Of a stretch of DNA of 30,999 bases, positions 769 through 20,441 are shown piece after piece. The notes under the pieces are model-generated. The model was not told the DNA's origin. It saw only the letters and a program-made list of their open reading frames with translations, and did no database searches. Position 1 is the first letter of the stretch. Each line of letters starts with the position of its first letter. A program made the position numbers and the translations under genes. Source of the stretch: a virus; IMG/VR virus record IMGVR_UViG_3300037847_002182, positions 1 to 30,999 of that record; one strand, given 5' to 3'.

Positions 769-1533
769 TTAAGGGAAGCTCCTGAAAATACTTGAGCCAA
801 CCGAAAATAATTCAACAGGAGATGTAGAGTTATTTTTCAACTCAAACTCCATATAATAACCTCTAACGCCATAGGATTCAGCTATGCTATTTTTAGCGTA
901 GAGTATAAAATCATTATTAGACGGAACGCTACCACCAAAATCAGGTGATGGTTCAGTGTCTATTGTAATTGTAAAGCCTGTTTTTGATGTTATCAATCCC
1001 AACTTTTTCAAACTTCCATTGTCGTTTTTGTACAGCGTATCGTTAATACTCATCATCCCTGGCATGTCGATTGTAGTCGGGAAGGTAAGTACGACAGCTC
1101 TTGTGTTAGATGACTCAACGGATGTTACTGTTCCTATACCACCTACATTTCTAAGGTTAGCATCAACAGTCTCTGTGTTGGCTCGTATAAATGCGTGGTA
1201 TCTACCTTCTTTGTTATCAAAGAATCCAGAGTTTACATTTCCTGTAGAAAGGTTTGTGGATATACTTGCACTCCATGATGCATCACCCTCAAGCTCAATA
1301 GTTTTAAAAAGCTTAACTGTAGTTGGTTCTAAATTAAATGAACTTTTTATAGAGCTTGAGAATTGCTTTGCATAAAAATTATTTCTAACTTCATTTGTAT
1401 TGTGTCTGTACAGACTACCATTCTTAAATGTATAAAAATAATTATTCATACCTATCATGCAATCTGGTATAAATGAGTAGAATGAAGGCCATCCTTTTGC
1501 TCCCGAGCTATATGTTAATGTTTGACTTGCCAT
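769..1533 (-). CDS. Tail structural protein, terminal-domain type
   Basis: A 254-aa protein, beta-rich, with no signal peptide or membrane segment. The N-terminus reads GWPSFYSFIPDCMIGMNNYF and then YTFKNGSLYRHN, a motif I associate with tail or nozzle proteins of Bacteroidetes podoviruses, where it often forms part of a much larger protein. Residues about 130-215 form a small beta domain (IGTVTSV, SINDTLYK, FTITIDTEP, NDFILYAKN) laid out like the GDVIY module of the 2548-aa gene. It starts 5 nt after the stop of the 476-aa gene, so the two are almost certainly co-transcribed. Role as a tail component is inferred from context; the exact position in the tail is unknown. Confidence 0.7.
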   Translation of the reverse strand: MASQTLTYSSGAKGWPSFYSFIPDCMIGMNNYFYTFKNGSLYRHNTNEVRNNFYAKQFSSSIKSSFNLEPTTVKLFKTIELEGDASWSASISTNLSTGNVNSGFFDNKEGRYHAFIRANTETVDANLRNVGGIGTVTSVESSNTRAVVLTFPTTIDMPGMMSINDTLYKNDNGSLKKLGLITSKTGFTITIDTEPSPDFGGSVPSNNDFILYAKNSIAESYGVRGYYMEFELKNNSTSPVELFSVGSSIFRSFP

Positions 1534-1538
1534 ATTTA

Positions 1539-2969
1539 TTATTCTGTACCGTTGTGTGAAAATGATGCTGCACCTCCACCAGTTGTGTTTGGAGGAGTAA
1601 GTGAAAGAGAACCGCTCAATGTTAATACATGTGTTCCCACAGGAACTGTAATAGAGCCACTACTTTCAGCACCTGTTCGTGACGATGTTGTAACTGTAGC
1701 TGTACCTAAGGACCCTATTGATATTGTAGATGTAATTTGGTTATTGTTGAATCCGTCATTACTAGCTATTGCTTTAAATACTACAGGTGCTCCACCAACT
1801 ATTATGTTAATCTGTACGCTGTTACTCGATAAATCTTCACTTAATCCTAGTGTTTTTAGAACTCCTCTTGAATTTTCATAAGATACAGTTCCAATTAAAA
1901 TCTCATCAACACATCTTATTGCCTCTAAAACAACACCACTTCCATTTATTTTTATTGCATACCATTCGGCACTAGCAGAATTAGCTAATCTTAATGGAAC
2001 ATATTTGTTGTTTCCATTGTATTCAGTTCCACCTGTAAGAGTAGAAGTTGTATACAACACATCACCAACTCTAGGTGCATTTATTGGGAATGAAGCTCTA
2101 TACAACTGAAGTGTTTCAGCTTTGTTTTGACAGGCTGAAAGCGGACCATCGTTTGCTGTATTATATTGAACGCTATTTCCAACAAATGTATCATAAAGCA
2201 CAGGCCCTGACCCACAACCGTCACACTTGGTTCTTGGTTGTAATATTTTTACTGACGAAACAGTGTCAAGTTCTCTATAAAAACCTCCATCATCAGTTCC
2301 TTCATTGTAGAAACCATCAGCTGATTTAGTAAGAAGAGCAGCGTCATCGTAAATCATTGTGGCTGACAAGAAACTTGGAGAGTCTATATAATAAGTCGCT
2401 CCACTAGCAGTACAACATGCAGTTGATGCGGATGATGCGTCATAGTTAAGAGTTACTTGCTGAGAATATCTTAAATCCCAAACAAGATATAAGTAGTCGT
2501 GATTACTTGCATTAGTGTAATTAAATGAAACCTGGTTTAAACCAGCCACTGGACTTTCTATAGGAGTTGCTGTGTTCAATAATGGAAGCAATGTGTTTAT
2601 GTCACTTGATGTATATTCAGTATTCGATATTAAATACTTAAAGGAATGTTTTTGTGGGTTGAAAATAAAACTATCATTTACTATTCCAAATGTTACATCA
2701 GCACCCTCAGCTGGTATAGAGCCTTCAGATTCTACACCTGATTCTTTTCTAAAAAACGGGTTGCCATCAGAACTCATGATAATTTCTCTGGTAAATTCAG
2801 GACTAACAAAATCATCATTAGACCACCTTTGACGTATGGTAGCAGCTAAACCTTCCGCATTAACAGCATTTACGCTACTATATATAGGAGAGTTCAAAAC
2901 AACATACACTATGTTCAAGCTTTCAGCTGTCACACAATTAAACGTCACGGTATAATTAGCACATCCCAT
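1539..2969 (-). CDS. Beta-rich multidomain tail protein
   Basis: A 476-aa protein with several small beta domains. Residues 156-167 (HDYLYLVWDLRY) resemble a segment near residues 1968-1985 of the upstream giant protein (DAIYLIWNYRD), suggesting a repeated Ig-like domain. A Cys-rich part follows with CC at 185-186 and KCDGCG at 248-253, then a small domain with VGDVLY at 301-306. The C-terminal 110 residues are Ser/Thr/Gly-rich beta strands (IGSLGTATVTTSSRTG). The gene starts 5 nt after the 2548-aa gene and is followed 5 nt later by the 254-aa gene. The three probably encode one tail substructure, either the nozzle/muzzle or its adhesive decoration. No enzymatic motif is visible. Confidence 0.7.
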   Translation of the reverse strand: MGCANYTVTFNCVTAESLNIVYVVLNSPIYSSVNAVNAEGLAATIRQRWSNDDFVSPEFTREIIMSSDGNPFFRKESGVESEGSIPAEGADVTFGIVNDSFIFNPQKHSFKYLISNTEYTSSDINTLLPLLNTATPIESPVAGLNQVSFNYTNASNHDYLYLVWDLRYSQQVTLNYDASSASTACCTASGATYYIDSPSFLSATMIYDDAALLTKSADGFYNEGTDDGGFYRELDTVSSVKILQPRTKCDGCGSGPVLYDTFVGNSVQYNTANDGPLSACQNKAETLQLYRASFPINAPRVGDVLYTTSTLTGGTEYNGNNKYVPLRLANSASAEWYAIKINGSGVVLEAIRCVDEILIGTVSYENSRGVLKTLGLSEDLSSNSVQINIIVGGAPVVFKAIASNDGFNNNQITSTISIGSLGTATVTTSSRTGAESSGSITVPVGTHVLTLSGSLSLTPPNTTGGGAASFSHNGTE

Positions 2970-2974
2970 ATCAA

Positions 2975-5900
2975 TTAATTAACTACAGGCCATCCACCTG
3001 GATTTGCAAATCCTAAATCTAATAAGGATTTTGTTATTTTAAATAAATAATAATCATCCCAACTGCTAAATCGTTGTCCTTCCGAAGTGCTATACTGAGC
3101 TGGAACTAATGGAGCTTCAACTAACTCAAGTAACACATTACCATTTGAAAATCTCGTAACTTGTCTTGTAGCAGATTTACGTGTATCATAATCAATATTA
3201 AAAACTGAAGATAAATCACTCAAACCATTATCACCAGAATATATTCCAGTTCCATTCTGAACGGCTTGAAGATATTCTTTAAACATTTTATCATCACTTT
3301 TTGGTATTCCGTCATGGTTAGGGCTCATGAAAAATATGTTTGCTTTATAAAAATTAGGATTGTTTTGATTTAAAAGCTCAACTCTTCTTCTTAAGTTTTT
3401 AATATCTCCAGAGTGATTAGGTGAATTTGCTGCGGTATCAAAAAATGTTCTTTGGCCGCCTCTTATTGAAAAATATGGGTAATCAGCAGTAATATACGGA
3501 AATTCTGATGTAGACTTACCACTTGTTTCACCCATTTGTTGGGTCGTGTTTGTGGTTGCTTCATCCTGAAAAACAAACATAACAACATTATCTGGTTTAT
3601 CTGATGGTGAAGCACCTTCTTCAGTTCCTAAAAGAGGAGTCCAAGTTGTAGATTCAAATCCATCTTCTGGTAAATAAAAACTTTCTTCAAAAGCAGTTCC
3701 TTTATTTTCATTGATTTGATTTCTATATAATAAGCTTTGCTGCTTATGGTCTTGTAAAACAAGCCAAGTTCTTTCATTCCCCCATGCTCCTAATCTATCC
3801 AATGGCGGGTCTCCATCTAAACTATCTACATATATTAATTGGTCAAACGGGTTAGAAGAACCTGTTCTTTTAAGAGCATCGGGTTCAGCCTCAGGAACCG
3901 TTGTGTCAACAGTATATACGCCATAATTACCGTATTGAATTGCCGTTATCTTACCAATGACTTTATGTGTCGCTGGCAAAGAACGCTCGCTGCTTATCAA
4001 AAATCCGCCAACTTTAGATGTAGTTAATATTTCTTGAGGGTCTCCTATAAATCCACCTTCAAGTTGTTGATTAGTTCCAAACGTAAAGTCTCTTACAACT
4101 GTTCTATTTACAAGCTGAATTTTAACTGCAGACGGGTCTGATTTAGATAGGAATTTATAATTACTATAAATCTGATAATTTGTACCTGGGTATACATACA
4201 CCTTTTTGTCGTATTCATCAGAGTCATTATTATAAAATGGAAGTAAAGCTTCTTTTAATTTACCATTTCTAACTAAATTTGTCAATATTGTTTGTTCTAA
4301 TATTATAGAACCACTTTGGTCAAAATTAAAATACAAATAAGTGTTTTCTGTAATAGCAATAGATTCAGTATTAACTACATTTGACGCTGAACAAGTTCCT
4401 CCAGAAGATATTGTATATCCAAATGTGTCTACTAAGTTTGAGCTCCCATCCTGAGTGTATTTTACAACAGCCTCTCCTTCATTTACAGCAACAAATCCTC
4501 CAGATGGTATGGGGTCTCCATTTGTTTTTGTTACAGTTCCATAAGATGGCGATGGTGTAATTGATATTGTAACTGGGTATGTAACATTAGTTACAGTGGA
4601 GCTATTTATTAGCGGTATATTTATATTACCACCTTGAGTTATTCCCTGTACATCTATTTCTTGAAGTACATTTGGCAGGTTGTCTCTATAGTTCCAAATT
4701 AAATATATAGCATCTGGGTTTTCACCTTCGTCTTGTGATGTAACTGTAAATGTTGTTTCGTTTGTTTCTGTTCCATCTGCAGCTGTAGTAGAAGTGATAG
4801 TTCCAAATGTTGCGTTGTTTAATAAAAAATCAGGACTAAGGTCTTGTTCTGGTCCAACGTAAAGTCCAATAGAATTACACGGATTGAAATCACCTGTTTG
4901 CCCTGGAACTTTAGTTGATGTTATAGTTACTGTGTTTCCGTTTAAAGGTATGTTTAGATTAGAACCATCAGTAAAACCTGATACGCTTGACTCTTCACTA
5001 ACACCATCCGCATCAAAAACAGTATCAACAGAATACGGTGTGTTAGAATTTACTTTGTAACTATTGGTGATAGTTTCTCCAGCTTGATTAGCGTCATTTA
5101 AAACTACTAGATATACTTTTCTTTCAGGCGGAAGAACTGGACAAGTGTGAGTTATACTTACTCCTGTTTGATTTGTGTCGCTTGTAAGAGTTACGGTGGC
5201 TATAGAAGTTGTTGCTAAGCTTTGCGTTGTTACAGGTATTTCTACTTGACCACTAACATTTGGCCCTCCAGTGTATGTTGTTCCGTTATATTCTACACTT
5301 ACTGACATTGGATTAGCAGAGCTAAAATTAACAAACGCACTACCCGTGGTATTGCCAAGGTCTAATTTATATGTGTATGTGCTAATTGAAGACAATGCAA
5401 GTGAGCTTATGTTTTGGTCACATCTGTATGATGGTATTGTTCTCTCTGCGCCACAAGTACTTTCAATAGCTGAAAGAACTGAGCCAGATGCAAAGCTATT
5501 AATTCTGACACCATTTGTAATTGATGCAGCATCTGTATATACATTTGTGTTTGCCTCATATGGGTTTTCATTTGGACCTATGATATTAAGAACTATTCCC
5601 AAATCATTACATATTGAAGCCAATCTTAAAAACTCATCCGCATCTACTTGATTATGGAATGCGTTTTCACCTCCAGGTTTGGTGTTTGTGTATAGAATAA
5701 TTTGTTTGTTTACATTGTTTCTAAATGCTCCAGCTAAATTGTGCTCAACAATTCTACTCAAAGCAACCCCAGATGGCTGGCTTTTAAATATAATTGGAGT
5801 AGTCCCTCTCACTGCATCTGTTCCAACTGTAGTGCCAAATATATATTTATGACCAGAACCAGATGATGTAAATATATCTGCATCTAAAGTAAGCTGAGTT

Positions 5901-8900
5901 TCGCTGTCTACAGAAACAACTGTAGCAGAAACACCAGCGGACCAAACACTTGGATTTGAAGCATATTTGTATATAACATCCCCAGGTCTAATTCCGTTGG
6001 TTATAAATGTTGCGCTTGAATCAATAAGTTTGTTTGCAGAAACAGAAGTAACTTGTCCGATTGTAAGGCTATTTGGTTCTATAGATATAGACCTTAAATA
6101 CCTATTAAACGAATCCTTGTTTCCAGTCGAAAACTTTTCAAAGCACGTAACATATTGACTATATGATGAATCCGTATTAATGTATTTTTGTGCAGAAGGT
6201 AGATAATGATAATCACCCTGAACTGTATATTTTGGCCAGCTCCCTGCATTTGTTACTTCAGGTCCAGCAGCATATGGAAGACCAACGGCATTAAATAATC
6301 CACTTGCTACCATTTCAAGCTCTGTGCTGCTTATTTTAGAATTAACATTACTTCCATCAAATGGGTTAAGTCCCCTTGCTGGGTCTCCAGATATAGAGTT
6401 TGGAAAATTAGCGTTTGAATCAATCAGCCTGTCTGCACCACCAACAGTAGTAACTGAACCAGTAGCGGTTGGAACATCAGTGTTATCAACAGCTTCATAA
6501 GTGACAAGCCCTAATCTATAATCTCCTCCAGATTGCTGCTCTATTGTAGTTATGATACTACTCATGTCGTTCTTTAAAGTCTGAATATTCTCTGGCATCC
6601 ATGTTGAGGGGACTCCAGGCGGAGTACCATCTAACGAACTATAATCTAAAAGGAATAATACATCCATTCCAGCATTACATGGTTGAACATCTAGTCCTGG
6701 GCAGCTAATAGTTACGGTGGCAGTGTCTGGATAGTTTTTTGTTTTTGTAAAACTCACACTTCCTGTTCCACTAATAACGCTATTCACAACTTGAGTGTTG
6801 TCCCAAACAACTTGCATGATAGTTTGATTAACACTTTGAACTGTGTAGTCTATCTCAACTGTACCGATAAATGGGTCAAACTCAACCTCATATATATCTT
6901 GGTTAATTAATTCTGTTGTGAATTCATTATCTGCAGAACATTCTACTTCTTCTATTATTTCTGTTACAACGTCTTGCTCATCTTCATTTATCGTAAGAAC
7001 ATATTCATTCATATATGGGTCAAAGCCACCGAGCTTGTATGACCTGAATGATTCTATAAATGTATCTCTAAAGAAAGACCGCATTCCTAATTCAGATATA
7101 GGTACAAGCTTGTCTTGTTTAAAACTACCACCTACCAAATTAAGCACCGCACCTCTTTTGGAGTCTGTAAAATATACTTCGTTTCCGAAATGAACGAATG
7201 TTTCTGCATCAGATGATATGCCATACTCTTCATTCCTTGCAATCTGAGTTCCTAAAACTTCAGGGACAGATGTTATCGCACCTCCACCAACCGAATCAGA
7301 TAATAAGTTTTTACCTTGAAGCACATAAGAAACTCTATCTTCTTGAAGAACAAGTAAGTCTGTTTCTCTGGCGTGCAATATACCAATGTTGCCAAAGGAC
7401 TTCTCTAAATCACTAAAGTTTGCAAGTGATAAGTTAAACTGGTTGAGCTTGTTTAAGTTTGTTTCTGCATTATAAACTCCTGAATAAGTTATAGATGCAA
7501 ATCTATGTGCCTTCTTGTAGTCTTGCTCAGATACAGCGGTTGTTCTTTGCCCTATAACTACTGAGTCTCCACCAATAAGGTCCTCTACCTTATAGCTTTC
7601 TACACCGTTTCCAAAAGTATAACAGTCATGAAAATCTAATAATGATACAGCAGGAGTGTTTTGTAATTGGTTTTGTTGATTCCCCTTGTGTAATCCATTT
7701 TCTATTAAGAATGTTTCCGAAGATTCAAAATAAATATCATTATCAATAGACACTGGTTTTGTTTCAAAAACAAACCCCCCAACACCATTGCCAGAAGCAG
7801 CGCTTCTTTGAAGTTGAAAGTCAATAAAAGTAAAAGAATAAAGGCTAAGTATATCTGGGTCTACTCTTCCGTTTGTAGCCTGCCATGCTTCTGAAATAGT
7901 TGCACCACTTATTGACCTAAGGAAAAGCTCACCAGTGCTAGTGTTTTGATAAAAATCTATTCTATTTTCTCCTTCTGGAGGATTAGAACCTGCGGCCTCT
8001 ACTGGCGGCGTTGTACCTGTGTATAAGGTATTATCTTGCGTAACTGGATAACATTCTAAAATGCTTGATTGATTATAATAAATCATGCCCTCTGCAAAAT
8101 CTATTTGTTGAGCAATAACCATTTCCCTAAAGTCAGTATAATCTCTTTCAGCAACATACTGAGCTGTAGGACCATTAGTGTCGGCATTAATCGCAACGCA
8201 CCCTACAGCCCTCGACCATCCAGTTTGTATTAGAAGAGTTACCACGCTACCTTGAGGTATAGGGACTGGTACATGTGTCCCCGTGCCATCGTCCTCAGAC
8301 AGCAACGCTGTCTCCATACCTCTATCTGATATAGAAGAATTTTTATCGTCTACTATTAATCCATTATGAAATTCAGTAATGGCGTTAAAAACTAAATCTT
8401 CACTATCAGTATATATATTAGAGTCTACAGAAAAATTAGTTGGTCTTAATTTCATGTAAACTCCAGCTGGTTGTTGAATATCAGAAACTGCCCCCCCTGG
8501 AATTAAAAAATTTCTTTCTTTTGCTTCAACCTCTAACACTGTTGTTTCAACAAGATTTTGAGTAGGTCCACCAGAATCTACTTTTACAATAAGTTTGTCA
8601 CCTTCATTTACTTTTTTAGAATTCTCTCCTTCTAAAAGAAAATATGCAAACCCGCTGTTTTCAAAAATATTATTAAAGCAATATATCGTTTCATACGTGC
8701 CATAACTTGGCTTTATAACAGGTCTGTATGCAGTAGCCCAATATGGAGGTTCACTATTTATTTTAAATTCAATTTGATTTTTTTTCGAAGAACTATAAGC
8801 AGGTGTATAAACACTATTGCCTGTTGAAGTAAATACTGTAGATTGTCTTCCATATTCATCTAGGTAAACAATTCCAAGCTCGTAATTTCTATTACTATGT

Positions 8901-10621
8901 AAAGTTTGAAATCCATCTGGGCTTGTAACTGTTACCGCAAATACATTAAAAGAAAAATACTCATATATATCAGGGTCTGTAGCATGAGTATACTTCATTG
9001 CGTTGCAGGTTATCAAAATAATATTTGGTCCTGCAGAATTGTAATCAAATCCTTGACCAATGGCTGTAAGACCACTCCCTGCTTTTGAATACCCCGCTGG
9101 TATAGAGCTTGTGGATACGTTTGAATTAAATATATCTGTTAAAGTTCCACCGTCATCTGCACTAGCTATAGGCTGTATATTATTTGTTGTTCCTATAAAT
9201 GAAGCAAACTCAGGAGATGAAACTAATTCATTTGCACTCGTATAATTTTTGCCAAGTACAAAAGATGAACTTATATTAAAAGATTTCTGAAAATCAGTTG
9301 GTGCTGTACCTGTAGTTGTATAGCTATCATGAGATATATTAATTAAAAAGTTAATTATAGAACCTTTCTTTAATTTATCTGAAGATAAAAAACTAGAAAA
9401 ATCAATATCACTTCTAGCATCAGTAACCGTATAATTTTGATTTGCTGGGTCAATATCATATCTTGATGAATCAGATTGTGAAGTTAAAACAGGCTTTGTA
9501 AATGTTTCAAAAGAAACTAAATTTGCATCAATGTCAACTTCAACCGATTGCTGTCCCTCAACAACATCCATGTCATAACCATCAACATAGTTTCCATACA
9601 TAATCCTATTGCCCATAATCGTCTGAGCTTTAGCAAATCTTGGAACATTATCATATAATCTAAACAGCTCATCCTGAGGAAGTACCGTATATATTTTGCT
9701 ATTATCAAAGTTTATATTAAACGTTGAGTTGCTATCAATACTTAAATTTTCTTTATTGTAATTGTCTATAACATAAACATTATTATTGCCACTTCTCTTA
9801 AAACAAATTTGAATCTCTTCAACCCTATCGCTTCCTGTCTCAACTTCTACTACAGCATTATTTATTCTGTTTTTCATACCGCCATTAAAGGCTCCGTCAA
9901 CATTTATAAAAAATGGACTTGGTTCAAACGCCGCTTCTGAAAAAGGAGACAGTGCACTGTACTCTCCATCTTGATATCTCCATCTATATGAGAATGTTAT
10001 AACCTTATCCTCAAGATAGTTACCTCTTTTCTCAGAAGTAAAAGATGATATTACAGGAGAATTAAATGGAGGCTTTACAATCACAGATAAATCATCTTCT
10101 GTAATTAAGTCGACATCATTTTGTGGCTCTCCATATGAGCGTGTTACGTTTATCTTTCTTGGTTGGTTGTAGTTGTCCGTAAAAAACAAAAGGTCATCTA
10201 CCTTGTTTATACCTACAATTCTGTTTTGTTTGTTAAAGTTAAGTACAGATGTACTAATAACATGATATCTAATAGAACCGCTAACACCATCTTCAGCTAC
10301 AGTCCAAGATGCAATGATGTCTACAATATTACTTGTTACAAAGAAGTATATGGTTTCGTTAGCTCCGTCTTCATAAGCTCCGATACACATAGCTCCATTA
10401 CTTTCATCAAGAGCAGTACCATTGTACTCAAGAGTTGTAATGCCACCAGGTATATTTGTTAAGAGCTCATTTCCTTTTGAGTTTTCTATAGCACCAATCT
10501 CACTATCCTCAGTAGAGCCAGCCCTAACATTAAGTGCATCAATGTATTCCCCTTGAGGTAGCAAGCGTTCGTCGACGCTCTTATTCATCACGCCTTTTAC
10601 AAAAGTAGTTTTTGTAATCAT
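2975..10621 (-). CDS. Giant tail nozzle/muzzle-like protein with two vWA-like domains
   Basis: At 2548 aa this is by far the largest gene. The N-terminus (KGVMNKSVDERLLPQGEY, then IDALNVRAG) and a segment near residues 1140-1240 (YFTDSKRGAVLNLVGG, ELGMRSFFRDTF, LGGFDPYMNEYVLTI) match the conserved ends of the nozzle or 'stabilization' protein of crAss-like and related podoviruses, which I recall as roughly 1000-1300 residues. The extra half contains an Ig-like stretch, a von Willebrand A-like domain from about 1315 (VLFLLDYSSL, D1326) to 1730 (QIILYTNTKPGGE inside), more Ig-like repeats, and a second vWA-like domain with a canonical MIDAS DxSxS at D2101 (FNFDQSGSI), later VVMFVFQDEA. A small beta module (about 1522-1592) is inserted in the first vWA. 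The N-terminal role is to close the tail tube; adhesion by the C-terminal half is inference. Confidence 0.8.
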   Translation of the reverse strand: MITKTTFVKGVMNKSVDERLLPQGEYIDALNVRAGSTEDSEIGAIENSKGNELLTNIPGGITTLEYNGTALDESNGAMCIGAYEDGANETIYFFVTSNIVDIIASWTVAEDGVSGSIRYHVISTSVLNFNKQNRIVGINKVDDLLFFTDNYNQPRKINVTRSYGEPQNDVDLITEDDLSVIVKPPFNSPVISSFTSEKRGNYLEDKVITFSYRWRYQDGEYSALSPFSEAAFEPSPFFINVDGAFNGGMKNRINNAVVEVETGSDRVEEIQICFKRSGNNNVYVIDNYNKENLSIDSNSTFNINFDNSKIYTVLPQDELFRLYDNVPRFAKAQTIMGNRIMYGNYVDGYDMDVVEGQQSVEVDIDANLVSFETFTKPVLTSQSDSSRYDIDPANQNYTVTDARSDIDFSSFLSSDKLKKGSIINFLINISHDSYTTTGTAPTDFQKSFNISSSFVLGKNYTSANELVSSPEFASFIGTTNNIQPIASADDGGTLTDIFNSNVSTSSIPAGYSKAGSGLTAIGQGFDYNSAGPNIILITCNAMKYTHATDPDIYEYFSFNVFAVTVTSPDGFQTLHSNRNYELGIVYLDEYGRQSTVFTSTGNSVYTPAYSSSKKNQIEFKINSEPPYWATAYRPVIKPSYGTYETIYCFNNIFENSGFAYFLLEGENSKKVNEGDKLIVKVDSGGPTQNLVETTVLEVEAKERNFLIPGGAVSDIQQPAGVYMKLRPTNFSVDSNIYTDSEDLVFNAITEFHNGLIVDDKNSSISDRGMETALLSEDDGTGTHVPVPIPQGSVVTLLIQTGWSRAVGCVAINADTNGPTAQYVAERDYTDFREMVIAQQIDFAEGMIYYNQSSILECYPVTQDNTLYTGTTPPVEAAGSNPPEGENRIDFYQNTSTGELFLRSISGATISEAWQATNGRVDPDILSLYSFTFIDFQLQRSAASGNGVGGFVFETKPVSIDNDIYFESSETFLIENGLHKGNQQNQLQNTPAVSLLDFHDCYTFGNGVESYKVEDLIGGDSVVIGQRTTAVSEQDYKKAHRFASITYSGVYNAETNLNKLNQFNLSLANFSDLEKSFGNIGILHARETDLLVLQEDRVSYVLQGKNLLSDSVGGGAITSVPEVLGTQIARNEEYGISSDAETFVHFGNEVYFTDSKRGAVLNLVGGSFKQDKLVPISELGMRSFFRDTFIESFRSYKLGGFDPYMNEYVLTINEDEQDVVTEIIEEVECSADNEFTTELINQDIYEVEFDPFIGTVEIDYTVQSVNQTIMQVVWDNTQVVNSVISGTGSVSFTKTKNYPDTATVTISCPGLDVQPCNAGMDVLFLLDYSSLDGTPPGVPSTWMPENIQTLKNDMSSIITTIEQQSGGDYRLGLVTYEAVDNTDVPTATGSVTTVGGADRLIDSNANFPNSISGDPARGLNPFDGSNVNSKISSTELEMVASGLFNAVGLPYAAGPEVTNAGSWPKYTVQGDYHYLPSAQKYINTDSSYSQYVTCFEKFSTGNKDSFNRYLRSISIEPNSLTIGQVTSVSANKLIDSSATFITNGIRPGDVIYKYASNPSVWSAGVSATVVSVDSETQLTLDADIFTSSGSGHKYIFGTTVGTDAVRGTTPIIFKSQPSGVALSRIVEHNLAGAFRNNVNKQIILYTNTKPGGENAFHNQVDADEFLRLASICNDLGIVLNIIGPNENPYEANTNVYTDAASITNGVRINSFASGSVLSAIESTCGAERTIPSYRCDQNISSLALSSISTYTYKLDLGNTTGSAFVNFSSANPMSVSVEYNGTTYTGGPNVSGQVEIPVTTQSLATTSIATVTLTSDTNQTGVSITHTCPVLPPERKVYLVVLNDANQAGETITNSYKVNSNTPYSVDTVFDADGVSEESSVSGFTDGSNLNIPLNGNTVTITSTKVPGQTGDFNPCNSIGLYVGPEQDLSPDFLLNNATFGTITSTTAADGTETNETTFTVTSQDEGENPDAIYLIWNYRDNLPNVLQEIDVQGITQGGNINIPLINSSTVTNVTYPVTISITPSPSYGTVTKTNGDPIPSGGFVAVNEGEAVVKYTQDGSSNLVDTFGYTISSGGTCSASNVVNTESIAITENTYLYFNFDQSGSIILEQTILTNLVRNGKLKEALLPFYNNDSDEYDKKVYVYPGTNYQIYSNYKFLSKSDPSAVKIQLVNRTVVRDFTFGTNQQLEGGFIGDPQEILTTSKVGGFLISSERSLPATHKVIGKITAIQYGNYGVYTVDTTVPEAEPDALKRTGSSNPFDQLIYVDSLDGDPPLDRLGAWGNERTWLVLQDHKQQSLLYRNQINENKGTAFEESFYLPEDGFESTTWTPLLGTEEGASPSDKPDNVVMFVFQDEATTNTTQQMGETSGKSTSEFPYITADYPYFSIRGGQRTFFDTAANSPNHSGDIKNLRRRVELLNQNNPNFYKANIFFMSPNHDGIPKSDDKMFKEYLQAVQNGTGIYSGDNGLSDLSSVFNIDYDTRKSATRQVTRFSNGNVLLELVEAPLVPAQYSTSEGQRFSSWDDYYLFKITKSLLDLGFANPGGWPVVN
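5874..5913 (-). repeat. DNA copy 1 of a shared beta module
   Basis: This 40-nt stretch matches 28326-28365 at 34 of 40 positions by hand alignment. It encodes the strand segment VDSETQLTLDADI of the 2548-aa protein. The partner encodes VDSDTQLTLNGDI in the 154-aa protein. Confidence 0.6.
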
Positions 10622-10622
10622 A

Positions 10623-11531
10623 TTACTTTATCCACTTATACTGACCCCGTAGACTCATAAGAAGTCTGCTTGGGTGTAGATTACTCATTCTTAATTTAGC
10701 ATTTCGATACAAAGCTGTCTTCTCTTTTTGTGCTCTTCGAACAATGTATTCCTGAACGCCTAGCTTTGTGCTCAATATCATATACCTAATGTAAGCATAT
10801 ATAAATTCTTCAGCAAGTTTGTTTACAACAACCTGACTATCTTCACCCTTTTCTAATCCATCTGATATATATTCGATAACAATCTTCTGTCCCTCTACCA
10901 CTTCTGAGCTAAAATTAATAACTCCTGAGCGATTATCTATCCTAAAGGTAGGGTTGATGTTAGCTGTCTCCGTATTAAGGCCGTAGCGAGCTCCTATGAA
11001 TCTATCAAAATACCAGTTTGTTCCGTCATAATATCCCAACTTACCGTTCATTATGCCATCTCCTGGGTATAAACTCTTCTGCAACTTATGTATTCTATCG
11101 TAATCTAGTTCAGATAATCCCTCTAAAACTCTACCATTATTATCAAATAATATCTTATCGTTGTTGTCTTTTAGGTATGCTTTAGAATAATTTGTTTGCA
11201 TATTCTCAACAAGAGGAAACAAAACATCATCTCTATACATTGATATGCGAACATAATTTACATAGTCACTTGGCAATATAACTTGAAGCCTGTCTGTAAC
11301 TGATTGCTCAAGAACCTTTACATCCTTCATTGCATCGTAGTGGAGCTCTTGAATAGCACGCTTTGCATGAAACAAAACTTTGTACCTTGGTATGTTGTTG
11401 ATAATCTCGTGGTTTCCAACATACATCAACATAAAATTGTTTACAATCTCAGATAACTTTATATACTGAGACGAACCAAAGTTTTCTCCGTTGTCCTCTT
11501 CGTAATATTTAAAATCAGATATATAAGCCAT
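10623..11531 (-). CDS. Tail tubular/ring adaptor protein
   Basis: A 302-aa protein with no signal peptide. The N-terminal half is helical (VNNFMLMYVGNHEIINNIPR, FHAKRAIQELHYDAM), then beta strands with LPSDYVNYVRISMYRDDVLF, and a helical C-terminus (LAEEFIYAYIRYMILSTKLG, then RRAQKEKTALYRNAKLRMS). This helix-beta-helix plan, the LPxDYV motif, the length and the position between head and nozzle genes fit the ring or tail-tubular adaptor proteins of crAss-like podoviruses (functional counterparts of T7 gp11 and P22 gp4). It starts 1 nt after the 234-aa gene stop and ends 1 nt before the giant tail gene. It should form a ring under the portal that joins head and tail. Assignment rests on motif memory and context. 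Confidence 0.7.
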   Translation of the reverse strand: MAYISDFKYYEEDNGENFGSSQYIKLSEIVNNFMLMYVGNHEIINNIPRYKVLFHAKRAIQELHYDAMKDVKVLEQSVTDRLQVILPSDYVNYVRISMYRDDVLFPLVENMQTNYSKAYLKDNNDKILFDNNGRVLEGLSELDYDRIHKLQKSLYPGDGIMNGKLGYYDGTNWYFDRFIGARYGLNTETANINPTFRIDNRSGVINFSSEVVEGQKIVIEYISDGLEKGEDSQVVVNKLAEEFIYAYIRYMILSTKLGVQEYIVRRAQKEKTALYRNAKLRMSNLHPSRLLMSLRGQYKWIK

Positions 11532-11532
11532 C

Positions 11533-12237
11533 TTATTGTTCTTGTTGTTGTTCTTTTAGTTCTTCATTGTTTCCAAAAGTCACGAGGTCTTTTTCTCTTA
11601 TCGACACGCCAGCGTACTGAAGTATCTTCATAACAAGAGATGGTTCATCAGAAGCTGGTAACTCAAAGTCCTGATAGTCAGATGCAGTTGCATCAAACAC
11701 AGGTTCTCCAGAAGCAATGTCAATGTATGTCCATTTAGGGTCTTTTGGATATCTCACATATGTTATATTAACAGAAACCCCACCATCTAAAGCTGGATAA
11801 ATAGTAATAGATTGATTTTGTAAAACATAAGCTGGGTATTCTAAGGTTGGCGATGTTAAGTTTGAACTATTTAACATTAATATTTTGCTATGATTTACTC
11901 TTTCAGCTTCCACTCCACCCACGACTACATTATTTATTAAATAATAATCTGAAGGTGTTTGTCTTAAAGATGGGTCTCCCGATGGCATTGCAGGAGAATT
12001 GTAAGAAGTATAAAAAGAATCAATGACTTCCGCTAAACCTTTTGTAATATCAGCATATCCAGTTCCTGATTGCCTTGTGTTTTCTTTTCTTATCTGTGCA
12101 TTGTATGCATAGAAATAGTCCTCAAACAAATCAAGTTGAGCCTGCTTTGCATAGAGGTTGAAATCATTCGGTGATATATAGCCAAAGTTATTCTTATTAG
12201 CTATGGCCAATACTGTTGTTCTTACAGAGTTTATCAT
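11533..12237 (-). CDS. Head-tail adaptor/ring protein
   Basis: A 234-aa protein. It starts with MINSVRTTVLAIANKNNFGY and ISPNDFNLYAKQAQLDLFED, a pattern common at the N-terminus of ring/adaptor proteins in Bacteroidetes podoviruses. A beta section follows (LEYPAYVLQNQSITIYPALD, VNITYVRYPKDPKW), then a short helix with LPASDEPSLVMKILQYAGVS and a Gln/Glu-rich tail. It is the first gene after an intrinsic terminator and has TATCTTTG 14 nt before its ATG, so it probably opens the tail transcript. Together with the 302-aa protein it likely builds the collar below the portal. The fold assignment is inferred, not shown. Confidence 0.65.
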   Translation of the reverse strand: MINSVRTTVLAIANKNNFGYISPNDFNLYAKQAQLDLFEDYFYAYNAQIRKENTRQSGTGYADITKGLAEVIDSFYTSYNSPAMPSGDPSLRQTPSDYYLINNVVVGGVEAERVNHSKILMLNSSNLTSPTLEYPAYVLQNQSITIYPALDGGVSVNITYVRYPKDPKWTYIDIASGEPVFDATASDYQDFELPASDEPSLVMKILQYAGVSIREKDLVTFGNNEELKEQQQEQ

Positions 12238-13132: not shown

Positions 13133-14566
13133 TTAGTCTTCGAATAAGAAGAAGTTGTTAGCACCAAGAACACATAATGCACGCTCAGTTAAATAATTAA
13201 CTGTCATTGCATCAAGAGATGAACTCATTCCTGCAGAACCTGCAGAACCAGTCACCCATGTCTTATACTTACGGTCTTCAGTTTCAGAAGCTCTATAACG
13301 AACATGCAAGAAAGGTCGTTTTGCGTTTTTACCAAGAACTTGGTCATAAACAGTTGTAGAGCCAGCAGGTACAAGTACCCCATTTATAGCTCCAGCAACA
13401 ATACCACCTCGCATAGTAGCGTCATTTAGGTATTTCCAGTCAGACTTGTAGAAATCATAACCTCTACGGAATCCAGAGAATCCAAGATTTAAGGCCATGT
13501 CTTCGTCGTTGTCAAACAACCCATAAGAAGTACCACCTGTACCATAAGAGTTTTGAGCAGCCAACATATCGTCAATGCTAAAGCTCAACTCACGGTTAAG
13601 GAAAAGAACATTCTCTTCAATAGCACCTTCTTTATCAAGACGCTTAACAACATTATCAAAGTCTGCAAGGTTATCTAAAGAACCAGCTGCAACATTTCCT
13701 CGTTGTTCAATTTGATGGAAAAGTCCGTCAGTACCTTTATTACCAGTAATAACTGAATTGTCTAAAGCAATAACTCCTGAAGCAGCCTCAGCTGGTACAG
13801 CTTCAACAAGTGCAGTCTCCATATAGTCTTCAAATCTTAAGCGAGTTTCATGCTCAGACTTGATATACCATAGGTATCCAGTTGCACCATTTTCAGTAGT
13901 TACTTCAATCCATCCAATTTGAGCCATATCAGAACCGCTAACTTCATATTTTTCTTTGATAATAATTGGGCTATTTTCAAAGATGTTGTCATCAGCGTCT
14001 GCAGACGTAAGTGTAGTTGTATCAGTTCCTTTTTGATACTCAGAACCATAAACAAAAACAGTCAACGTCTCACTTGTAGCAAAAGTAGCTCCGCCCGCTT
14101 CATAAAAAGCAACGTCAAACTCATTAGCAGTTGTACTAACTGACGTAATGATAGCTTTGTTTTGCTTTACAGAAGCAGCTTGGTTGTCTGAAATCATAAC
14201 TGTCTGTCCAATTTTCAAAGGAAGCGACCCAGCAGCAGGAGCACCAGCATCAGAAACTACAATTGTTGCAGTGTCATCTCCAAGAGTAGTCCCAGCTTTA
14301 CCAGCACAGTTGATATATTTAATGTGTAATCTTCCTTGCTCAGCCCACTTAATAAGGTCAGAGTTGGAAGGCATCTCAGCACCTACCATTCGAAGGAATG
14401 AAGATACAGAGCGGTTTCCATAACGCTCAAATTCCTTCTCCATTAAATCAGGAAGGTATTGTTGCGTGAAAACAAAAGCATCATTACCAAGATAGTTTGC
14501 CTGTGTAGGCACTCTCTCGGCAGATGGTTGTAATGCCGTACTTGTCGGCGTAATAGTAAAAGCCAT
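13133..14566 (-). CDS. Major capsid protein
   Basis: A 477-aa protein, probably of the HK97 fold, forming the icosahedral shell. The N-terminal arm has FVFTQQYLPDLMEKEFERYG. The core has ENSPIIIKEKYEVSG, SDMAQIGWIEVTTENGATGY and HETRLRFEDYMETALVEAVP, and the end has SGSAGMSSSLDAMTVNYLTE. These segments resemble capsid proteins of marine Bacteroidetes and crAss-like podoviruses as I recall them, and the length fits. Residues about 100-180 (PLKIGQTVMISD, KAIITSVSTTANEFDVAFYE, SETLTVFVYG) look like an inserted small beta domain. The order portal, acidic scaffold, capsid supports the call. An intrinsic terminator follows immediately, and the leader is A-rich with no Shine-Dalgarno sequence. I see no TAnnTTTG directly upstream, so it is probably read from the scaffold promoter. 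Confidence 0.9.
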   Translation of the reverse strand: MAFTITPTSTALQPSAERVPTQANYLGNDAFVFTQQYLPDLMEKEFERYGNRSVSSFLRMVGAEMPSNSDLIKWAEQGRLHIKYINCAGKAGTTLGDDTATIVVSDAGAPAAGSLPLKIGQTVMISDNQAASVKQNKAIITSVSTTANEFDVAFYEAGGATFATSETLTVFVYGSEYQKGTDTTTLTSADADDNIFENSPIIIKEKYEVSGSDMAQIGWIEVTTENGATGYLWYIKSEHETRLRFEDYMETALVEAVPAEAASGVIALDNSVITGNKGTDGLFHQIEQRGNVAAGSLDNLADFDNVVKRLDKEGAIEENVLFLNRELSFSIDDMLAAQNSYGTGGTSYGLFDNDEDMALNLGFSGFRRGYDFYKSDWKYLNDATMRGGIVAGAINGVLVPAGSTTVYDQVLGKNAKRPFLHVRYRASETEDRKYKTWVTGSAGSAGMSSSLDAMTVNYLTERALCVLGANNFFLFED

Positions 14567-15762: not shown

Positions 15763-18198
15763 TTATCTTGGCTCAAATTCTGCCAAGTCAAAGCCATCTA
15801 AACTATCCTCATTTGATTCAAAACTCATAGGAGGTAGATTGTTTTTACGCTGGTCTATTAGTTTAGATTGCTGTGTGTTTTGCTGACTAATTCTATCAGC
15901 TTTAGCCTTCTCTCTGTTGTTCTCTCTTTTCTGCAAAGAATTAGCCTCAATACCTTTGAGTTGCATGTTCATGTCAAACTCAAGTTGCATAAGCTGTGAT
16001 TTAAGAGCAGCTTCATTCTTCATCTTTTCAATATCAAATGCAATCTCAGCTTGCTTAAGCTCCATCTTAGAACGCTTCTCAGCTTCAATCTTAGCCAGTG
16101 CGGCTTCTGCAGCCATAGCTTGTGATTGCTGATTTACTTGCGCTTGAGTCTGTTGTTGCATCATACTTTTCTGAATGTCGTTTTCTTCTTTCTTCTTTCT
16201 TTTTAATTTAAGAAGTTGATTAGCAACCTTCAGGTTCTTAACATCTCGAATATCAATTGCATCTTCCAGATGTATCTGGTCTCTTGACAGGGCGGTTTGT
16301 ATATTCGCTTCTAACTGAGCCTTTTCTTCTTCATCTGGAGAAAGCTCAATAAATATTCCAAAGTCGTACAGATATAAATCTTTAGTATCTTCAAGTGTGG
16401 CTACATTATACTTCCCTATCTGCATTGCAAACTCTTCCTTGAACTCAGAGTATTCCAATATATCTGATATTCTACAAGACAGACCTTCTGCAAGTGCCTT
16501 AGTTATTTGTAAGCTAGCATCTAATACATGTCTTGTTGCTGTATTCGAGTTTGCTGCTGCAAGTTTTTGTAAACCAACCAATGAATCTGGGTCAATCTTA
16601 CTTCCATCTCTAGCCTCATTAAGCCCTGTTACATCACGCATCATGTTGAGATAGTGATTGTAACTACCAATTAAACTAGCAATCTTTGCTTGACCAGAGT
16701 TACTTGTAAGCTGCTGAATTGGAACTCTTGCGTTGTTAAACTCTCCATCTTGAGTATAGCTTCTTCCTACAACAGAACCTGTTTGAAAGTAAAGTCTTAA
16801 TGCATCTTCTGGATTATAGACTCCACCATTACCAAGGTCAACCTCACTAAGTCCATCGGCATCTATAAACACACCATCTGGAACTACCTTAGATATAACT
16901 TGCTGTAACTTTAAATGCGTAATCTGAATCAGGTCAGCAAATGTAATCATTCTTCTAACCAAAGATTCAATTACACCCTTGTACATTCTTGGAGCATTAA
17001 CAATATATGGAGACGAAACGTGCTGTGAAGCTGACTTTGGTCTAACCATATTCTTAGCCATCTCCCATTTAAGCATAATGTTTGTACCCATAACCATTAC
17101 GCCTTCATACCATACTTCAATTTTCTTTTCAATTCTTTCGAAGTTTCCGTCAGCCATCATTTCTTCTGGAGGATTGAACGAATCATCTTTTTCAATCATA
17201 CGCTGCCCACCATTGTCAAGCATTTTCTTTTTGTAAACAAAGCTTTTGTCTGTTTTGTAGCTAAAGTAAAGTAGTGTGGCTGTGTCTCTATTAAACATAG
17301 AGTTTTCATAAAACCTTGAAACATTGTAGTAATCGTACCAGCTCTGGCTGTATTTAGATATATTTTCTAAATCTTCGTTTGTTAATGTGGGGTCAATCTT
17401 TCTAAGCTCTGTTGTTGGAACAGTCTTTACTTCTCCCCAATAAAAACAATCTCTAAAGTTATTATCTTCAGTGTAACTATAAACTAAGTTAGCTGGGTCT
17501 ACATAGTCAACCTTAACTCCAGCGCCAGGTAAAAAGCTATGTTTCGCAGCTCCTATACCTATAGTTGTCAAATCATAGTTTATTCTCTTTTTGATTTCAT
17601 CATAATGATTTTCACCAAGCACTGTGTTAATTGCTTGCTCCTGAGCTATCTCAATAGATGGCTTATACTTTAGCTGCATGTGCAGAGCTAACTCTTCATC
17701 ACTTTCTGGAATGTCTTGTTGTGGTACAGCAAATGCATCTATACCAAAGCTTTCGTTCATTTGCTCCAAGAAATCTTTTGCAACCATATCGGTTTCAATC
17801 ATGTCCTGATAGGCAATTCTTTTTTCTGCAGACATAGCGTCTTGTGCATATGTGTTGATAGAAAACAATCTATCAGACATTCCATTTACAACTATGTCTA
17901 CAAACTTTGGTATAATTGGTATCGGAGTCCAATCTAAGTTTAGATAAGACAAATCTCCGTCTACTGCTAATTCGTTTTTGTATTTTCCTACAGACTGCTC
18001 CCCTCGAGAATATAATCTCAACCTGTGGAAATCATCTAATTGTCTGTAGAACTTACAGTCACCATTACCACGTCTGAACCATTCATATTGAATAGCTTGA
18101 CCAACTTGGAGACCGAACTCCATAGAAGCCTTCTCTGAGTCGCTAACAAATTGACCTGGAAACGATGCGCTATTAACTGATATGGTTACTTCCTTCAT
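15763..18198 (-). CDS. Portal protein
   Basis: An 811-aa protein that should form the dodecameric portal at one capsid vertex, through which DNA enters and leaves. The main body spans about residues 30-640 and includes LDWTPIPIIPKFVDIVVNGM, DYVDPANLVYSYTEDN and a helical region with RDVTGLNEARDGSKIDPDSL, a typical portal feature (MRDVTGxNE). From about 640 to 780 the protein is a long charged and Gln-rich helix or coiled coil (KKEENDIQKSMMQQQTQAQV, AAEAALAKIEAEKRSKMELK), likely the barrel or an internal extension. The start overlaps the terminase stop by 4 nt (ATGA). It is longer than the 500-600 residues of many siphophage portals but near what I recall for crAss-like phages. Confidence 0.88.
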   Translation of the reverse strand: MKEVTISVNSASFPGQFVSDSEKASMEFGLQVGQAIQYEWFRRGNGDCKFYRQLDDFHRLRLYSRGEQSVGKYKNELAVDGDLSYLNLDWTPIPIIPKFVDIVVNGMSDRLFSINTYAQDAMSAEKRIAYQDMIETDMVAKDFLEQMNESFGIDAFAVPQQDIPESDEELALHMQLKYKPSIEIAQEQAINTVLGENHYDEIKKRINYDLTTIGIGAAKHSFLPGAGVKVDYVDPANLVYSYTEDNNFRDCFYWGEVKTVPTTELRKIDPTLTNEDLENISKYSQSWYDYYNVSRFYENSMFNRDTATLLYFSYKTDKSFVYKKKMLDNGGQRMIEKDDSFNPPEEMMADGNFERIEKKIEVWYEGVMVMGTNIMLKWEMAKNMVRPKSASQHVSSPYIVNAPRMYKGVIESLVRRMITFADLIQITHLKLQQVISKVVPDGVFIDADGLSEVDLGNGGVYNPEDALRLYFQTGSVVGRSYTQDGEFNNARVPIQQLTSNSGQAKIASLIGSYNHYLNMMRDVTGLNEARDGSKIDPDSLVGLQKLAAANSNTATRHVLDASLQITKALAEGLSCRISDILEYSEFKEEFAMQIGKYNVATLEDTKDLYLYDFGIFIELSPDEEEKAQLEANIQTALSRDQIHLEDAIDIRDVKNLKVANQLLKLKRKKKEENDIQKSMMQQQTQAQVNQQSQAMAAEAALAKIEAEKRSKMELKQAEIAFDIEKMKNEAALKSQLMQLEFDMNMQLKGIEANSLQKRENNREKAKADRISQQNTQQSKLIDQRKNNLPPMSFESNEDSLDGFDLAEFEPR

Positions 18199-20441
18199 GT
18201 TATTATTTCGCTGTAAATTCCCTTATTATTATATCTTGCAAATTTAATGTTTATTTTTGACTGTCTTTTCTGGGGGGTATATTTACTTCTCTGGTTAGCC
18301 ATAATAGCTAAACCTGAACTAATTGCTGCATCAAACTTTGTTCTATTTGTTATATCAAACTTGGCCCAATCTTCCAATGTTCTTGTAAAATACATAGCAC
18401 CCATATCGCCAGCATCCCTGTAATCACCATTAAAATCTATCCCAACATACTTTTCTATATAAGATTCAATAGCTGAGGCGTGAGCTTGCTTTACATCTTC
18501 AGATGAGTTGGGTATACCTCCAATTTCTTTTTCTGCCTTAGAGAGCTTGTTAAACGCCTTATCTGGCCTGTTCATTGAAAATCCTCTATATCCTCTGTTC
18601 TTCATGTGATACAAAAGTCTTGGCTTATTATTCTCAACTAAAACAGGCATACCATAAAACACACAAGCCATAAGCACCTCTTCGAAAAATATCTCTGCTG
18701 TTTGCGGCCTTGCTATATACTCAAGAAAAAACTCATTACTTGGAGCTTCATCCATATTAAATTTAGTCAATCCATGTAAAGCTCCATTAGAACCCCTGCC
18801 AACAACTGTACCTGATATATCATAGGAGTCACAACCAAAAGAACCTATGTGTTCATTGCCAGGATACTTAGCTCCATTTTTAATAATAACTTTATTTTGT
18901 AAAGACTTGTTCGGTATCCAAGATAATAAAAATCTTCCCCTTGGGTCTGGAGTCCATATTACTTGAGAATCCTCAACCCCATCTTTCCAATGAAAAGAAC
19001 CCTTGGTTAGATACTTTTCTTTTATAATAGAATCATTATAGTCTACCTGTTGATATATTTTTGTTAGATTAAATATAGATGATTTGGTTTCATCTCTGAA
19101 TGCATGCGACTCTGTTCTTGGAAACTGTCTATAAAATTCATTCAAAGCATCAGGGTCGTTCTTCAAACTATCAACCTCATTCTCCCAATATTCTACAGCC
19201 CCCTGGGGAATGTAATCACCGTAAGAATCCAACAGTGGTTTTTTTGGGGTATCCAAAACAGGCATGCCATATCTATCAATAAAACCTTCCATATTCCATT
19301 CCATGGGTATAAACAAACTATACATTCCACTCTTTGTTTGTCCGTTAGAATTTCTTTTTGTTATGTCAGAATCATAGTACAACTTCTTAAAGTTATCACC
19401 ACCTTTGTCCAAAGCATTTGAAGTAGACCCCATCATACATTTACCTATAATCCTTCTACCCAGTCTAAGACAGGTTTTTGTTACACGCCAGTTATTAAGA
19501 ATATTATCTGGTTTGTCCCATTTACCACTTTCATCGTGAACAAGAAGCAAAAGCTTTTCACCATCATAAGAGTTATCTCCTGTATTCTTCCAGTCAATAG
19601 TTGTATCTAATCCTTCAAACACAATGTCAGACACCGAGTTCATGTTCTTCTTTGTAATCTTAGAAGCTGGAACACGGTATGCAAGCTCAGTCTTTGGTTT
19701 GTCCATACCATCCTGTATGGGCTTGAAAAAAAATGGATAGTTATTTGATATAGGCACTACCTTATCTGTAAACATTTTCTTTGCATCAGAACCTGTCTTT
19801 GATAATATCCCAACCCTTGCATCTTTGGCAAGCGTTCCAGTATTTACGCATTCAGAGGAAGACATAAACGAAAATCCAGAACGACGTATCTTCAAATACA
19901 CCATCCCAAAACTTCTTTGGTCTGCCTTACAAGCTTCCCAAAATATAAAAAACAATCTGTTTGCCTCACGAAACTCTGGGTTTCCAACATCTATTTTAGT
20001 CCACTGAAGATACATATAGTGAGTTCCCGTTATGTATGTTGGCTTTCCATTGTTCATAAACCAAAGCCCATCCTCTCTTCTGTTGAACTCTTCTTCTATA
20101 TAATCAACCCACTTGTCCTTGAACTCCTGAGCAGACTCATGCCACTGGAATATACTTGGTATTCTTGAAAGCTCTTTGGGATACTCTTGAACTTCCCAGT
20201 ATTGCTCAGAAGAATCTTTGTGTCGTGAAAAAACTTTTCGTGGTTTTTTGGGTAGGGCTATATTCAGCCCACTGATAGATATTACAGAATCAATAGTTCC
20301 GTTTTTAGATATAACAACCATATCATATTTATCGTCATATCCATACTTCCAGCTCTTAGCCCTATTCTTGTTTGAAATTACATTCTTAGGAACATGACCA
20401 TGAAGCTCTTTATACAAATTATTTTGACCTTCTTTCTGCAA
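18195..20441 (-). CDS. terL: Terminase large subunit
   Basis: A 748-aa DNA-packaging motor with ATPase and nuclease domains. The Walker A position is occupied by KIRRSGFSF (184-192), a form without the usual GKT/S. Walker B is LLLLVHDE (297-304, D303 and E304). The coupling motif is GSTSN (338-342). The C-terminal RNase H-like nuclease shows SFGCDSYD (D538), PVLVENN (E603) and KFDAAISSGLA (D704) as the acidic triad. The N-terminal 100 residues are an extension before the ATPase core. The start overlaps the upstream 95-aa gene by 23 nt and the stop overlaps the portal start by 4 nt. The sequence type is that of Bacteroidetes podovirus and crAss-like terminases. No TerS is identifiable with confidence. 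Confidence 0.92.
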   Translation of the reverse strand: MQKEGQNNLYKELHGHVPKNVISNKNRAKSWKYGYDDKYDMVVISKNGTIDSVISISGLNIALPKKPRKVFSRHKDSSEQYWEVQEYPKELSRIPSIFQWHESAQEFKDKWVDYIEEEFNRREDGLWFMNNGKPTYITGTHYMYLQWTKIDVGNPEFREANRLFFIFWEACKADQRSFGMVYLKIRRSGFSFMSSSECVNTGTLAKDARVGILSKTGSDAKKMFTDKVVPISNNYPFFFKPIQDGMDKPKTELAYRVPASKITKKNMNSVSDIVFEGLDTTIDWKNTGDNSYDGEKLLLLVHDESGKWDKPDNILNNWRVTKTCLRLGRRIIGKCMMGSTSNALDKGGDNFKKLYYDSDITKRNSNGQTKSGMYSLFIPMEWNMEGFIDRYGMPVLDTPKKPLLDSYGDYIPQGAVEYWENEVDSLKNDPDALNEFYRQFPRTESHAFRDETKSSIFNLTKIYQQVDYNDSIIKEKYLTKGSFHWKDGVEDSQVIWTPDPRGRFLLSWIPNKSLQNKVIIKNGAKYPGNEHIGSFGCDSYDISGTVVGRGSNGALHGLTKFNMDEAPSNEFFLEYIARPQTAEIFFEEVLMACVFYGMPVLVENNKPRLLYHMKNRGYRGFSMNRPDKAFNKLSKAEKEIGGIPNSSEDVKQAHASAIESYIEKYVGIDFNGDYRDAGDMGAMYFTRTLEDWAKFDITNRTKFDAAISSGLAIMANQRSKYTPQKRQSKINIKFARYNNKGIYSEIIT

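Follow-up and report, generated by a model that had tools for sequence, protein, structure and literature searches.

A marine bacterial virus with an integrin-like, adhesion-type tail tip that probably serves as an interchangeable hold on its host

The muzzle gene and its insertion

The window analyzed here is a metagenomic virus record of 30,999 bases (IMG/VR record IMGVR_UViG_3300037847_002182), in which three consecutive genes on the minus strand, P0001, P0002 and P0003, encode a muzzle, the nozzle protein at the tail tip of crAss-like phages and podoviruses, together with a long additional segment. Sequence comparisons indicate that the muzzle gene is split and that an extension has been inserted at one loop of the protein. 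We consider it likely, although not assured, that the extension is an exchangeable tip on a split crAss-type muzzle and that the tip serves in receptor binding. The nozzle is kept while the tips are swapped for unrelated domains in related viruses, and the integrin-like, adhesion-type tip of this marine bacterial virus is therefore probably an interchangeable means of holding on to the host cell.

P0001 is an uninterrupted open reading frame (ORF) of 2548 codons on the minus strand (2975-10621). The features of P0001 and of the two genes that follow it are listed below, including the immunoglobulin (Ig)-like and von Willebrand factor type A (vWA) domains.

6995..10621, minus strand: muzzle N-terminal part, aa 1-1209, last strand FDPYMNEYVL (phrog_14478, virion-protein homologues, motif kept in relatives)
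6674..6994, minus strand: first Ig-like domain, aa 1210-1316 (comparison with relative L006, predicted strands)
5450..6670, minus strand: vWA1, aa 1318-1724, internal (homology in families A3/A6, predicted fold)
5849..6061, minus strand: small module inserted in vWA1, aa 1521-1591, GDVIY...ATVVSVDS.TQLTLDADIF (copy elsewhere in the window)
4652..5434, minus strand: second Ig-like and arm domain, aa 1730-1990, ending in IYLIWNYRDNLP (match to phi18:3 gp114)
4346..4654, minus strand: Big_9/cadherin-like domain, aa ~1990-2092 (predicted structure, Foldseek, Pfam in homologues)
2978..4342, minus strand: vWA2, aa 2094-2548, C-terminal tip (motif and position; vWA by motif)
1539..2969, minus strand: P0002, free-standing arm-type protein between the muzzle halves (homology to muzzle extensions)
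769..1533, minus strand: P0003, muzzle C-terminal part (MUZ_C) as an ORF of its own (PF25729)

P0001 matches phrog_14478 (E 1.8e-216). Its homologues in Cellulophaga and Flavobacterium podoviruses are virion structural proteins with 32-38% identity, and a further homologue is found in the Manatee Spring podovirus. Direct searches with P0001 gave no match in Pfam and none among PDB sequences; a relative of the same phrog (L236) matched the N-terminus of Pfam crAss_MUZ at 57 bits (cut-off 27). P0003, which begins with TLTYSSGAKGWPSFYSF, matches Pfam crAss_MUZ_C (PF25729; E 2.4e-12, 47.5 bits versus a cut-off of 27), and its profile was aligned by hhalign to residues 1196-1283 of crAss001 gp44 with 93% probability. 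For the final part of the P0001 core, the profile matched gp44 1049-1167 weakly, at the position expected. The connection at the insertion site in gp44, at residues 1180-1196, is the short stretch NDVYFTYKDHCLCYSEL, whereas in the window the core runs to residue 1209 and is followed by 1339 residues, a stop codon, P0002 and P0003. Gaps of 5 nucleotides follow the stop codons of P0001 and P0002, and each of the three ORFs has its own ATG. Residues 4-354 of P0002 match residues 97-418 of the muzzle extension of L163 (33% identity, E 1e-47), and the extension of L151 is matched as well. Thus, the separate MUZ_C ORF, the 1339-residue extension and the location of P0002 between the two halves show that the muzzle is split and carries its insertion at a single connection. 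In other muzzles, the first Ig domain is followed by an arm domain similar to P0002, and the window thus appears to have two arms in a stack.

The initial annotation of this DNA had described a 2548-residue protein with a nozzle-type first half, which agrees with the uninterrupted frame, the phrog match and the podovirus homologues. It had also placed the conserved end of the nozzle within that half, near residue 1250; this was incorrect, because the core stops at about residue 1209 and the true end is encoded by P0003. The interval originally given, 2975-7000, covers the extension (aa ~1210-2548) and not the whole ORF. The protein had further been called doubled in size, which holds in a relative sense, since extensions of 99 to 1339 residues are present in all of the split relatives sampled.

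These relatives come from a sample of 147 non-redundant muzzle ORFs from IMG/VR, complete at both ends, which were collected in two muzzle-family profile scans (best 80 matches each) and in scans aimed at the extension and the vWA domains. The sample is biased, both by the restriction of the family scans to the best 80 matches and by the several scans that targeted vWA. A separate downstream MUZ_C was present in 138 of the 147, one muzzle was fused, and no MUZ_C was located within the fetched stretch for the remaining eight. The extension of the window is the longest in the sample. Judged from these sequences, it is not peculiar to the window phage; it is the longest member of a widespread and variable feature.

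Exchange and divergence of the tip

The clearest pair for comparison is L027 and L024. The two are 98% identical over the final 230 residues of the muzzle core (the "blade"), 92% in the first Ig-like domain and 90% in MUZ_C, whereas the last 200 residues of the extension are 4% identical, one tip being vWA2 and the other vWA1. Their DNA is 88% identical as far as the breakpoint and 91% identical beyond it. A third member of the group, L054, ends with neither vWA domain. A second exchange group comprises L016 (vWA1), L018 and L017 (no vWA) and L020, which carries thrombospondin type 1 (TSP1) repeats. In L020 (IMGVR_UViG_3300046318_000098; muzzle ORF 2763-9446), the extension (6216-9443) is largely made up of eight such repeats, which match Pfam TSP1_spondin with E 1.8e-103. 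The TSP1 domain is best known from animals and from apicomplexan adhesins. Across pairs with a blade identity of at least 75%, which are not independent of each other, the tips were less than 30% identical in 114 out of 356. The sequences thus point to replacement of the 3' end of the gene, by which the tip is changed and the nozzle left unchanged.

L006 is the complete relative closest to the window, and the identities between the two are 96% for P0003, 92% for the first Ig-like domain, 78% for vWA1 and 41% for vWA2. For vWA2 the number of synonymous substitutions per site (dS) is about 1.6 and near saturation, and the ratio of nonsynonymous to synonymous substitutions (dN/dS) is therefore unreliable for this domain. 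The rapid, modular divergence at the distal end that is expected of a phage receptor-binding protein is apparent in these comparisons.

Domains of the extension

Homology and predicted fold firmly identify vWA1 as a vWA domain. It aligns with the C-terminal domains of muzzle tips (L016, L024 and L204) and of proteins of ~740 residues found elsewhere. Pfam VWA was matched by 17 out of 17 relatives in family A9 at the reporting limit of E<=1 (best 1.6e-8), and L016 and L024 exceed the curated Pfam cut-off. The window segment alone gave no Pfam VWA match. For vWA1 there was no sequence match in the PDB search, and nothing significant was obtained from the PDB with profiles A1, A2, A5 and A6. In the AlphaFold2 (AF2) model of window residues 1215-1880, the vWA core was predicted with a per-residue confidence (pLDDT) of ~85-94. 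The best PDB matches of the model in Foldseek were nearly all integrin beta (4g1e_B, E 2.8e-5), plus the pilus protein PitA, and BFVD contains a virus protein named VWFA with a matching fold. The vWA domain proposed at D1326 in the initial annotation was thus recovered by structure prediction and fold comparison as well as by the Pfam matches of its relatives.

The relatives of vWA1 keep the metal-site residues D, S/T, S, T and D; L016 and L024 both have DxTxS and the loop-3 Asp. In the window, D1326-Y-S1328 is kept and T1492 is a candidate, N1646 replaces the loop-3 Asp, and the fifth motif position is a Leu before a loop insertion. A complete metal ion-dependent adhesion site (MIDAS; DxSxS, T, D) is not present, and the site of vWA1 is by its residues degenerate. 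The small module at aa 1521-1591 has a 48% identical copy in the window ORF 28115-28579; relatives also have modules of this type in ORFs that lie upstream of their muzzle gene, and vWA1 of L016 and L024 is without one. A vWA1-type domain also ends the family of ~740-residue proteins mentioned above (L173-L212, for example L206 8510-10735), in other and often larger phage contigs. For this family, no match to an isolate phage and no clear PHROG was obtained.

The motif of vWA2 consists of D2101-Q-S2103-G-S2105 and D2353, with T2285 as a candidate. DxSGS and an FQDE strand are invariant in 23 aligned vWA2 members, and DxSGSM is invariant in the 18 members of family A8, from which the window was left out. 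In relatives, vWA2 is the C-terminus of the muzzle ORF, mostly with MUZ_C directly after it. The AF2 model displayed strand-helix alternation in its confident parts, and a profile comparison of the vWA1 and vWA2 families gave a weak match, located at the motif. vWA2 has an intact MIDAS-type motif (DxSGS...D) and is by this motif a putative vWA domain. Of the two vWA-like domains in the initial annotation, the one at D2101 bears the MIDAS motif throughout its family, and the one at D1326 a degenerate site. By position and motif the two domains are not equivalent, vWA1 being internal with a degenerate site and vWA2 terminal with an intact one.

The Ig-like repeats that had also been proposed were confirmed as Ig/cadherin-like domains in the model and as Pfam Big_9/Cadherin in relatives. 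The first is 91.5% identical to that of L006 with a dN/dS of about 0.09, and strands were modelled by AF2 with low to moderate confidence. Further along, residues 1749-2074 of P0001 match residues 1136-1442 of phi18:3 gp114 (E 2e-17). The Big_9/cadherin-like stretch was predicted with a pLDDT of about 80-94 and matched structures of Ig/cadherin type in Foldseek, and Pfam Big_9 was found in the homologues L236 and phi18:3 gp114. A different construction was observed in the muzzle extension of L155 (10631-13324), where long PTPTPT linkers separate small cysteine-containing domains.

vWA2-type domains outside phage muzzles

One scan of bacterial genomes was made with the vWA2 family. A vWA2-type domain was found at the end of lipoprotein-like proteins of about 520-555 residues in Salegentibacter (L251, L252, L254 and L257) and Gillisia (L259). 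Proteins of ~1050 residues with PKD and a vWA2-type C-terminal region were identified in Dokdonia pacifica (L262, 7376-10645) and Chryseobacterium sediminis (L265, 7469-10591). The Chryseobacterium gene adjoins PAAR, gp25 and baseplate-V (Phage_base_V) genes, and thus belongs to a contractile injection system operon. The sequences indicate that the vWA2 family is common to phage muzzles, an operon of the extracellular contractile injection system (eCIS) type and lipoproteins of Flavobacteriia.

Two muzzle genes in bacterial records were arranged differently. In Leeuwenhoekiella aequorea LMG 22550 (L255, NZ_QOVM01000006), a lone muzzle gene with a vWA2 tip (2771-11313) adjoins a tyrosine integrase and a helix-turn-helix gene; its other neighbours look chromosomal, with no full prophage. 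This locus is possibly a phage satellite that carries an alternative tail tip. In a Cytophagaceae metagenome-assembled genome (L258), the muzzle core (5932-9516) and a vWA2-type tip (9956-10600) are two ORFs.

Interpretation

A conserved body, one insertion point, Ig spacers, a variable end, exchange of the tip and reuse of vWA2 are what an exchangeable receptor-binding tip would show. Residues 1-1209 of P0001 and P0003 would together form the conserved nozzle body. The insertion (P0001 1210-2548, with P0002 as an added arm) would form a row of Ig-like spacers, interrupted by vWA1 and capped at its free end by vWA2, that projects outward from the nozzle. Six copies may be expected at the tail tip, and the tip would be located in the virion accordingly, by analogy with gp44 (PMC10172136). 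The intact MIDAS-type motif suggests metal-dependent binding, and vWA2 would be expected to bind a surface ligand via a divalent metal. The degenerate MIDAS of vWA1 suggests a structural role, and this domain is more likely part of the stalk. The idea in the initial annotation of a vWA adhesin in the tail that determines specificity is supported in outline, by the tip exchange and by the reuse of vWA2 in surface and injection proteins. The anatomy is different from that envisaged, the adhesin being an insertion in a split gene.

Several observations weigh against this interpretation. Relaxed constraint could also account for vWA2 diverging faster. The vWA domain proposed at D2101 retains the support of the family-wide MIDAS motif, but there was no vWA match among the Foldseek matches listed, which were mostly to the neighbouring Ig-like domain, and the family is without a Pfam match. 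The AF2 model of the window domain is poor in the middle and confident only in parts. Neither vWA family matched any of 50,697 isolate phage records at E<=1e-3, and each muzzle found to bear a vWA domain comes from a metagenomic contig or a bacterial genome record. The insertion loop would also have to face outward.

The vWA and Ig domains could instead serve as assembly or stabilizing contacts at the tail tip, for example as an enlarged muzzle skirt or as metal bridges between subunits. The conservation of vWA1 at 78% between the window and L006, in spite of its incomplete MIDAS, is as expected of a structural part, and the Ig-like and extra domains of the gp44 muzzle build its own body (PMC10172136). 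However, tips that are swapped for unrelated domains, or absent, while the nozzle body and MUZ_C are little changed would be hard to tolerate for an assembly contact. In addition, the MIDAS-type motif of vWA2 is kept throughout, and vWA2 is found at free C-termini in non-phage proteins. We therefore regard such a role as unlikely.

Less probable still is that the tip binds a target other than a receptor, such as an environmental polysaccharide, or serves extracellular attachment ahead of infection, with host range set by separate fibres (ORFs 25493-27910 and 28767-29981). The window does encode fibre-like proteins apart from the muzzle, one of which by eye has a tail-spike-chaperone-like end, and similar roles have been proposed for the head fibres of crAss001 (PMC10172136). 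At the tail tip, however, the domain would sit where the phage meets the envelope, and the module is also encoded alongside PAAR, gp25 and baseplate-V genes in the operon of a cell-puncturing type of system. Finally, the window is a metagenomic record, but we consider it very improbable that chimerism or misassembly of contigs produced the long ORF and an unreal domain order, and rejected this explanation, since the same order was observed in other contigs (L006, complete with 2450 aa, and L007 and L008, partial) and purifying selection acts along P0001 in the comparison with L006.

An exchangeable receptor-binding tip is thus the interpretation that we prefer. A broader view, which we put forward tentatively and hold to be somewhat doubtful, is that many Flavobacteriia podoviruses have a split nozzle with one loop that displays interchangeable metal-dependent, integrin-like vWA or thrombospondin-type modules. 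The vWA2 module would then circulate among phage tails, contractile injection systems and host lipoproteins, and phage entry would be integrin-style. Podovirus host range is generally attributed to side fibres and spikes. In this case, an exchangeable specificity module appears to be carried by the nozzle itself, at the single loop where the gene is cut. If true, the tail-tip specificity of uncultured flavophages and of their crAss-like relatives could be read at a precise place, and phages, host surface proteins and an eCIS-type system would share a candidate module for metal-dependent adhesion.

Genomic context

The muzzle ORF adjoins ring/tail-tube genes, downstream of the terminase, portal and major capsid protein (MCP) genes, as seen from the gene order and the phrogs of P0004, P0005, P0007, P0009 and P0010. 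The neighbouring genes are listed below.

18195-20441, minus strand: terminase (phrog matches and gene order)
15763-18198, minus strand: portal (phrog matches and gene order)
No coordinates given, minus strand: scaffold-like protein (named from position and our reading)
13133-14566, minus strand: capsid-type structural protein, MCP (named from position and our reading)
11533-12237 and 10623-11531, minus strand: two structural proteins in the tail-ring position (ring name positional, our reading)

Two fibre-like proteins, read by eye, are separate from the muzzle (ORFs 25493-27910 and 28767-29981). The end of the latter (SDERDKKDI...) resembles a tail-spike intramolecular chaperone by eye, and the protein is likely a separate fibre. 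The nearest annotated records are the Manatee Spring podovirus, the Cellulophaga phages phi18:3, phi46:3, phi19:3 and phi13:2, and the Flavobacterium elemo phages. In its record, phi18:3 is classified under Pachyviridae.

Comparison with known systems

A literature search found no description of vWA or TSP1 modules on a phage muzzle. The best described relative is crAss001 gp44 (PDB 7qok, 7qol and 8ckb), a hexameric muzzle that forms the nozzle of the tail tip (PMC10172136). It shares with the window a homologous body, a conserved C-terminal domain and a location next to ring-type tail genes. Unlike the window muzzle, gp44 is one chain of 1371 residues, and the site that in the window holds about 1339 residues and an extra ORF is a short connection in gp44; its additional domains (IG1, IG2 and the crass fold) are placed elsewhere, and no vWA has been reported in it.

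The split arrangement is shared with gp114 and gp115 of phi18:3, both of which are virion proteins according to the tandem mass spectrometry (MS/MS) notes in the record. The phi18:3 extension also has Ig/Big_9 domains, but is 502 residues long with no vWA or TSP1 domain detected. The unsplit arrangement is represented by gp25 of the Flavobacterium phage elemoA (Elemovirus), which belongs to the same muzzle family and has MUZ_C, but is a fused protein of 1470 residues with no insertion.

Outside phages, the vWA fold of vWA1, set beside Ig-like domains, is reminiscent of the integrin beta I domain and the Ig-like hybrid domain that holds it. Adhesion by integrins is metal-dependent, whereas vWA1 of the window is without the full metal site. 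Tail fibres of eCIS in the eBAP4 group contain PKD/VWA domains, and their modular C-terminal binding domains are exchanged between systems (PMC12923769). The Chryseobacterium and Dokdonia proteins resemble these fibres in domain content, in that they combine PKD with a vWA2-type region. The eCIS fibres are located on the baseplate of a contractile system, whereas the tip of the window is carried by a podovirus nozzle.

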